The notes beneath the pieces are model-generated. The model had not been told where the DNA came from. It worked only from the letters and a program-made list of their open reading frames with translations, and ran no database searches. From Terasakiella sp. SH-1 (GTDB lineage Bacteria; Pseudomonadota; Alphaproteobacteria; Rhodospirillales; Terasakiellaceae): DNA of 64,000 nucleotides. The stretch is from NCBI RefSeq assembly GCF_004564135.1, contig NZ_CP038255.1, positions 3,335,501-3,399,500 of the forward strand. The letters are read 5' to 3'. How positions within the stretch are numbered: the first letter of the stretch is position 1; each line of letters begins with the position of its first letter. The translations under genes were made by a program, and so were the position numbers. Below are positions 12,433 to 44,714 of this stretch, one piece after another.

Positions 12433-12705
12433 CTAGGGCGTAAACTCATAAAATAGACTTGTTTGGCGGAGATGTATTTGAGGATAGACAAGGCATGAAA
12501 CCCGCAGAAGTGCGAGCACTTTAAGGGTTTTATAACGCCGCTCTATCCTCAAATACATCCCGTCCCTTACGGGATTTCCCTAAAATATAGGCATTACGGC
12601 GTTAAAGTCTTTTGAAAGTACAAGTACTTCCTGCAAGCCTTTGCCTTATCTTGCCTATATTTTAGGGAAACCAAAGCAAGTCTATTTTATGAGTTTACGC
12701 CCTAG
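12433..12705. other. nested inverted-repeat element 1 (three-arm structured element)
   Basis: A 273-bp intergenic element. Outer helix: 12433-12461 pairs perfectly with 12677-12705 (29 bp). It is followed by one unpaired G (12676) and a 5-bp helix (12462-12466 with 12671-12675). A CGGA linker (12467-12470) leads into arm 1 (12471-12488 with 12542-12559, 18 bp), whose tip hairpin AAGTGC-GA-GCACTT (12508-12521) is followed by TTAAG and sits on an AAACCC/GGGTTT helix. A 15-nt spacer has its own small hairpin. Arm 2 (12575-12593 with 12652-12670, 19 bp) contains a hairpin at 12616-12629 followed by TGCAAG at 12632-12637. The arm loops also share an 8-nt complement (12533-12540 with 12597-12604). 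No open frame. Matches element 2 in plan. Confidence 0.85.
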
Positions 12706-30780: not shown

Positions 30781-30789
30781 GACCCAACC

Positions 30790-30861
30790 GTCATCCTCGC
30801 GAAAGCGGGGATCCAGTTAATCATTTGAGTTTTCTAGATTCCCAATCCAGTTGGGAATGAC
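30790..30861. repeat. composite palindromic intergenic repeat, copy e
   Basis: GTCATCCTCGCGAAAGCGGG ... CCCAATCCAGTTGGGAATGAC: the same two modules as copies c and f but in the opposite orientation. Confidence 0.75.
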
Positions 30862-44446: not shown

Positions 44447-44714
44447 TTACAGCTCTTTTCTCTAAATCTGACCCGTTTCATGGAGCCTTATCTGTGCTTG
44501 AGTTAGGAAAATTGTGCAAAACGATGCGGGGCATCGGTTAAGCAAATTGACGCGACACAAGCACAGATAAGGCCCACCAGAGGCGTTTATCTTAAACAAT
44601 GTGGAAGGCGGCACCTTCCATTTGCGGTGAATAACACCGCCACATGCAAGTTTTCTACCCACATTGTTTAAGATAAACGTGAAAGCGGGTCAGATTTAGA
44701 GAAAAGAGCTGTAA
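44447..44714. other. nested inverted-repeat element 2 (three-arm structured element)
   Basis: A 268-bp intergenic element. 44447-44475 pairs perfectly with 44686-44714 (29 bp). One unpaired G (44685) and a 5-bp helix (44476-44480 with 44680-44684) follow, then a TGGA linker (44481-44484). Arm 1 is 44485-44500 with 44558-44573 (16 bp); its tip hairpin CGATGC-GGG-GCATCG (44522-44536) is followed by TTAAG (44538-44542). After a 10-nt spacer, arm 2 is 44584-44604 with 44659-44679 (21 bp), containing a hairpin GCGGTG/CACCGC (44624-44640) followed by TGCAAG (44645-44650). Same plan as element 1 with different helix sequences. No coding frame. Confidence 0.85.

Follow-up and report, generated by a model that had tools for sequence, protein, structure and literature searches.

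Two palindromic elements in the window, the 64,000-nucleotide stretch of Terasakiella sp. SH-1 DNA analyzed here, belong to a structurally conserved, phylum-wide superfamily of MITEs. The common plan of ~268 bp places terminal inverted repeats around two hairpin arms in inverted orientation, and the interior of an element is formed by this fixed-geometry pair of ~96-nt (94-98 nt) modules, each containing an AGGM/RACG internal loop (Table 1). No description of the element was found in the literature searched, subscription papers lying outside that search. When six family end sequences were used as literature queries, only the two short ones matched among the papers listed, all of them unrelated.

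Table 1. Features of elements 1 and 2 and the further host subfamilies; positions refer to the window unless a contig or locus is named.
Feature	Position	Strand	Remark
Element 1 (subfamily F1) with one flanking target letter per side	12433..12705	.	11 full copies, differing flanks
Element 1 mobile unit, including TA on both sides	12434-12704		
Element 1 left terminal inverted repeat with TA	12434..12461	+	
Element 1 arm 1, sense on +	12467..12562	+	R1 match 12467-12561
Element 1 arm 1 internal loop, 5' side, AGGCA	12491..12495	+	
Element 1 arm 1 internal loop, 3' side, TAACG	12533..12537	+	
Element 1 arm 2, same module as arm 1, sense on -	12575..12670	-	R1 match 12576-12670
Element 1 right terminal inverted repeat with TA	12677..12704	-	
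Element 2 (subfamily F2) with one flanking target letter per side	44447..44714	.	5 full copies
Element 2 mobile unit	44448-44713		
Element 2 left terminal inverted repeat with TA	44448..44475	+	
Element 2 arm 1, sense on +	44481..44576	+	Loop letters 44505-44509 and 44548-44552
Element 2 arm 2, sense on -	44583..44680	-	R1 match 44585-44679
Element 2 right terminal inverted repeat with TA	44686..44713	-	
F3, host subfamily	C1:988970		
F4, host subfamily	loci L027-L032		
F5, host subfamily	loci L038-L041		

An earlier note, made from the sequence alone, had described elements 1 and 2 as sharing one three-arm fold. The sequence and folds confirmed that both have a perfect 29-bp outer helix, a bulged G on the 3' strand, a 5-bp helix starting with TTT, an NGGA linker and two arms. 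Two details of that description need amending: the two arms represent a single module, inverted with respect to each other, and element 1 has an extra central hairpin, CCCTTACGGG, between them (window 12563-12574). A short central hairpin is present in many elements (e.g. L251, L271), often as CCCTTCGGG or its complement CCCGAAGGG, of which the element 1 hairpin is a variant; CCCTTCGGG and CCCGAAGGG are unusually stable hairpins in RNA and DNA, respectively. Folding of elements 1 and 2 as single strands gave a z-score of -18.2 for each with RNA parameters and of -19.4 and -18.1, respectively, with DNA parameters; under either set, 0 of 200 shuffles were as stable for each element. The proposal that TTAAG and TGCAAG are fixed motifs did not hold up. 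Both had been read off one strand and so do not occupy corresponding places in the module, and neither shows general conservation; it is the AGG and ACG of the internal loop that are nearly invariant.

The elements are mobile. Element 1 is present in 11 full copies (96-100% identical) and element 2 in 5 (94-100% identical), themselves included, in the 3.83-Mb host genome, along with partial copies of each, and the flanking DNA differs among all 16 full copies. Their constant edge is TA (Y-TA at the left end of 15 copies and TA-R at the right end of 13, out of 16), and the letters outside the TA differ between the two sides. In addition, an F2 remnant is interrupted by an F4 element that has TA at either border (L028, about 461-800; G000:C1:3696811-3697150). 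The constant TA edges, the differing outer letters and the nested F4 element therefore indicate insertions with a 2-bp TA duplication. Thus, the elements insert at TA, are flanked by TA on both sides and are gene-free. They share with MITEs a length below 300 bp, terminal inverted repeats, the lack of a transposase gene, many copies and a target site duplication, as shown by the TA at both borders of most copies and of the nested F4 insertion. The many copies, the TA duplication and the insertion-sequence ends of element 1 described below bear out the mobile palindromic element that the earlier note had listed among its options.

At least three further subfamilies, traced in the host genome from weak F1 and F2 matches, have the same plan at about 266-271 bp with other helices. 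Forms that lack one or both arms are also present. Near-perfect palindromes of 54-64 bp, with little beyond the two ends, were seen at L120, L149, L174 and L023:1833-1896 and are probably remnants after arm loss. The Roseibium elements at L164:4746-5112 and L167:477-843 carry an insert of ~99 bp, consisting of two strong hairpins, within one arm. These 367-bp copies were considered as three-arm variants and rejected, since each is a 268-bp element plus the double-hairpin insert, with no third module.

Once each arm is taken in its own sense orientation, the pair within an element can be aligned, and so can arms from different subfamilies. RNAalifold predicted 26 pairs from 24 arms of 12 elements, 24 of them with changes on both sides. 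In the host genome, a covariance model of the arm (R1) matched 66 arms at E-values up to 10, all but one of them at 1.8e-9 or below, although E-values of these models are rough. R1 also found arms in 3 of 6 genomes of the family group, all of one genus, and in at least 84 of 297 genomes (38 of 111 genera) of the order sample. A second model, R2, built on 95 aligned arms, found them in at least 51 of 385 genomes (42 of 277 genera) of the class sample and in at least 69 of 398 genomes (49 of 213 genera) of the phylum sample, 49 of these 69 lying outside the host's class; there is overlap among the order, class and phylum samples. Wherever a sample exceeded 40 genomes, only 10-14 candidates were scored per genome, so that absences are uncertain and per-genome counts are lower bounds. 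The covariance-model search proposed in the earlier note succeeded in kind, with models that cover the arm rather than the full element: these match many covarying arms with fixed loop letters in related genomes.

Matches to a single arm in other classes were examined as possible lone arms, and most of the loci listed have a second arm, found by the model or as an inverted outer repeat. The model matched the second arm in six of them (L262, L263, L268, L269, L271 and L272); L264 and L270 resemble one-arm forms with TA ends, and L259 is interrupted by a contig end. Among the plasmids searched, element 1 had no match; L271, a relative from another class, had 4 plasmid-search records, on plasmids of Azotobacter, Pseudomonas and Halomonas. 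The exact 19-letter F1 end was found in 79 public stretches, of which 4 belong to one Stygiobacter MAG and 75 carry names that we take to be those of Alphaproteobacteria.

The fold is retained among distant arms. In 94 distinct arms (A2), 94.3% of cells were paired vs 56.1% after shuffling, with covariation of 0.992 vs 0.249. In 150 arms kept out of 167 matches (A3), the values were 94.5% vs 53.6% and 1.034 vs 0.237, and sliding the partner by 1-3 columns left at most 43.1% paired, with covariation of at most 0.189. For two of the five measures, namely how many pairs change on both sides and how many types of pair occur, neither A2 nor A3 exceeded its shuffles. Both alignments were fitted to the model and hence lean to structure, and their letters lean to the motif because the models were trained on host arms.

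The loop AGGM/RACG, a tandem G·A, is nearly invariant in arms read on their own strand. This was assessed in a set of 99 arms, from which short rows and rows at least 75% identical to a kept row had been dropped. On the 5' side of the loop, A was found in 99/99, G in 99/99 and G in 94/99, followed by A or C; on the 3' side, G or A was followed by A in 97/99, C in 99/99 and G in 95/99. The G-C pair of the loop showed no change in this set. The non-standard pairs beside it (95 arms) were G·A in 87, then A·G in 67, C·A in 25 and A·A in 3, and they change together. As a model-free check, we used 16 elements defined by their ends, in which 20 of 31 arms carried the motif on the expected strand and 1 of 31 on the other strand, as compared to 1.3% of shuffles; the motif was present in both arms of 6 elements, in one arm of 8 and in neither arm of 2.

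To describe the ends, 54 arm loci from many genomes were examined with no letters imposed. An outer inverted repeat was found in 51, with TA in its outermost 4 letters on both sides at 36 loci, as compared to AT at 9, GC at 11 and CG at 3, and the end sequences were of many kinds. A search with TA imposed answered for 44 of the 54 loci, 37 at 260-272 bp and 7 as inner pairs of 238-250 bp. Because TA was imposed, that search carries no weight as evidence for TA, and the letter-free repeat run was used instead.

We next consider the origin of these ends. When F1 ends were paired, requiring an exact match at one end and allowing up to 4 mismatches in 19 at the other, the elements fell into sizes of 54-65 bp (arms lost), 173-182 bp, 264-270 bp (n=16), 367 bp (n=2, the Roseibium copies with the double-hairpin insert) and 848-854 bp (n=11), with 62, 200, 814 and 2226 bp once each. 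The ends of the 264-270-bp elements had no mismatch in 10 and one mismatch in 6 (of 19 letters), while those of the 848-854-bp elements had 2-4 mismatches in 11 of 11. One of the ~850-bp elements, L163, the sole one that was domain-searched, has two overlapping frames that match PF13340 (DUF4096) and PF01609 (DDE) and therefore encodes an IS5-family transposase. F1 thus has its ends in common with an autonomous IS5-type element: the first 19 letters of the left repeat of element 1 are shared with the ~850-bp elements, and the remainder is the covarying outer helix. A DUF4096 remnant in the host genome has an F5-like end 124 bp upstream. Elsewhere, IS5-type elements have an F1-like end (G003), an F5-like end (G097) or an end like that of the G842 element (G001). 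The F4 end is similar to IS5-type ends in kind only, and no insertion-sequence partner of F2 or F3 was found among the IS5-gene loci compared.

Ends were found at 10 of 20 loci around IS5-type genes. Seven genomes had both an element and an IS5-type gene, and ends on both sides could be compared in three of them; with part of the IS5 genes covered, there was no end match within G097 or G089 and agreement of the start only in G025. In the host genome, a search covering DUF4096 among the IS5 transposase families gave two partial matches, one of them under the cut-off. DUF4096 co-occurred weakly with arms, in 47/84 genomes with arms vs 90/213 without (p 0.04, uncorrected for relatedness). F1 and F5, two of the five host subfamilies, have ends of the type of IS5-family (DUF4096 + DDE) insertion sequences, and the superfamily is tied to IS5-type transposases at least in part. 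The F1 elements are probably moved by the enzyme of the insertion sequence whose ends they share.

Among known systems, IS5-type MITEs are the closest kind. DUF4096-type IS5 elements are, we assume, the IS427 group. The likeness to IS5-family (DUF4096) MITEs includes the TA on both sides, the lack of genes, the many copies, the location outside genes in the 23 copies examined and the F1 ends in common with ~850-bp IS5-type elements. Unlike in those, a covarying two-hairpin core is kept here across a phylum with many different ends. The usual account of MITEs (PMC3189936) is that they are insertion sequences with an internal deletion.

REP dimers are a weaker lead. The opposite strand of the arm reads CGTY, hairpin, KCCT, and its consensus contains the CGTC tag, with CGT followed by C in 63/99 or T in 36/99. 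According to PMC3733652, CGTC-tagged REPs are common in Alphaproteobacteria without a dedicated transposase, span 20-40 bp with an 8-9-bp stem starting with AT, a 4-5-nt loop and a CCA tail, and often form inverted pairs, some inside longer palindromes, with dimers mostly in the tag-outside (HH) order. The arms resemble them in the CGTY/KCCT-flanked hairpin, the inverted pairs and the occurrence in Alphaproteobacteria, and CGTC REPs are present in the host genome, where 29 pattern matches (up to 2 mismatches) were found as compared to none with the reversed pattern. The one match in the window, at 30789-30815, has a stem of 8, a loop of 4 and a CCA tail. In contrast, CGTY here faces the center (the rare TT order) rather than HH, and the ~96-nt arms have two internal loops and a KCCT tail and lie inside transposon ends. 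The arm was therefore rejected as a CGTC REP: the tag is present, but its placement in the dimer is the reverse of the common one, and arms and REPs also differ in length, stem and tail. That a common factor might recognize arms and CGTC REPs is only a guess. REPINs and the GTAG REPs of RAYTs likewise have two inverted hairpins, and the outward block NNAGG, with GTAG in some arms, recalls them; however, the F1 ends are those of a DDE element, and the tag is not generally GTAG. An origin from REP/RAYT was rejected, since Y1 was found in 26/84 genomes with arms vs 65/213 without (odds ratio 1.02). The host itself has Y1 (IS200-like) transposase matches at G000:C1:2334571-2334933 and 1092415-1092714, one of them with an internal stop.

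Three results bear on whether the arms act as RNA or as folded DNA. For the first, we used 25 sister copies (11 F1, 5 F2, 5 F4 and 4 F5), each 0-13 letters off its own consensus (within about 5%). Paired sites differed in 96 of 5478 site-copies (1.75%) and unpaired sites in 63 of 1285 (4.9%). There were 17 two-sided pair changes, 15 of them distinct, and 6 of these 15 were by transversion; the 62 sites changed on one side comprised 20 G·T, 21 A·C, 2 gaps and 19 other mismatches. A transversion at a pair has no possible wobble intermediate, and template switching, the copying of one hairpin strand onto the other, requires a folded DNA strand. The two-sided sister changes suggest such copying within a DNA hairpin; they could instead come from selection on active copies. 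The earlier note had treated covariation with fixed motifs as the hallmark of a selected structure. The covarying fold with its fixed loop letters stood, but here covariation by itself does not mark out a selected RNA, because close sister copies, too, differ from one another on both sides of pairs.

Wobble pairs gave a more local signal. On the sense strand of the distant arms (99-row set), G·T exceeded A·C by 148 vs 13, and by 80 vs 14 when wobble was forbidden in folding. In the outer 12 letters of the arm, the two were equal (11 vs 11), so that the excess is confined near the loop. This one-strand wobble indicates that what is read at this place is probably single-stranded and folded, whether DNA or RNA; the sense strand is thus probably recognized in folded form around the loop only. 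At the insertion sites, a crude count of the neighboring frames for 23 copies gave 15 co-directional, 4 convergent and 4 divergent, and no copy lay within a frame. Together, the sister changes, the wobble pattern and the neighbor orientation tend to favor folded single-stranded DNA over RNA.

We tentatively propose a mechanism whose chance of holding in all of its parts falls somewhat short of even: a MITE superfamily moved in trans, with arms that fold as a single strand, strand copying within the hairpins and a loop read by a protein. IS5-type transposases would move the elements in trans. The element would fold when single-stranded, on the lagging strand, in a cruciform or in a transfer intermediate, and its helices would stay perfect partly because one strand of a hairpin serves as the template for its partner. 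A protein would recognize the sense hairpin around its loop in the folded state, the most likely candidates being a host factor that processes DNA and the transposase machinery, and with one sense hairpin per strand the element could function in either orientation. Counting against the proposal are the comparisons of ends within single genomes, the weak co-occurrence of DUF4096 with arms and its two partial matches in the host, the end-defined elements that show the motif in one arm or in neither, and the wobble near the loop, which would be expected of an RNA. In a bolder version, which we consider improbable, the element moves as one folded strand, whose ends pair to give a perfect duplex of 33 bp that mimics the end of a transposon. 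A duplex-specific DDE transposase could then act on single-stranded DNA, either freeing the entire element or inserting it, and the sense hairpins would load a guiding factor. If true, this version would explain why the ends and outer helix of the small elements are near-perfect as compared to the imperfect ends of the partner insertion sequences.

The strongest competitor of the proposed single-stranded DNA mechanism, itself unlikely though not to be taken lightly, is that the arm works as RNA. Read-through from either side would carry a sense hairpin in the 5' half of the transcript, where it would bind a protein or stabilize or process the mRNA and so soften the harm of insertion. The wobble pairs near the loop on the sense strand only, the tandem of G·A with A·G, C·A or A·A in the loop and the location of many copies within tens of bases of open frames are consistent with this, and other bacterial MITEs are reported to yield stably folded transcripts (PMC10969869). 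However, the outer arm helix and the tip helix are nearly without wobble, the neighbor orientation looks random by the crude count, and transversions on both sides occur at short distance. Wobble pairs would be expected throughout a usual structured RNA, unlike in these two helices. Rfam also gave no match above the gathering cut-off for the window and 8 loci; the 12 sub-threshold matches, far below the cut-offs, were eukaryotic microRNAs and one snoRNA.

There is a slim chance that mutation alone accounts for the arms, with template switching keeping inverted repeats perfect in a module that has no function beyond membership in a MITE. The two-sided changes between close copies fit such a process; template switching at imperfect inverted repeats has been studied in E. 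coli (PMC7202029), and template switching has been proposed to create and maintain RNA hairpins (PMC8794818). It would leave unexplained, however, the AGG and ACG at 94-100% and the ~96-nt length in arms less than 75% identical, as well as the motif on the expected strand of end-defined elements. Least probable is that the arms are double-stranded accessory sites, the letters of which bind the transposase or a bending protein with the palindromes as by-products: the arms are indeed placed symmetrically within the two ends, at a spacing that hardly varies, but the conserved letters form two short blocks, one on each side of a hairpin that is itself variable, and change in concert as non-standard pairs, and the ~850-bp partner L163 has transposase frames at the arm positions.

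One folded architecture is thus found throughout a phylum in transposons with many different ends, and it therefore seems that the fold, rather than the end sequence, is inherited. The superfamily offers a testable case in which DNA hairpins may generate the covariation that is usually taken as proof of RNA, and it raises a concrete question: which protein reads the AGGM/RACG-loop hairpin in so many bacteria?
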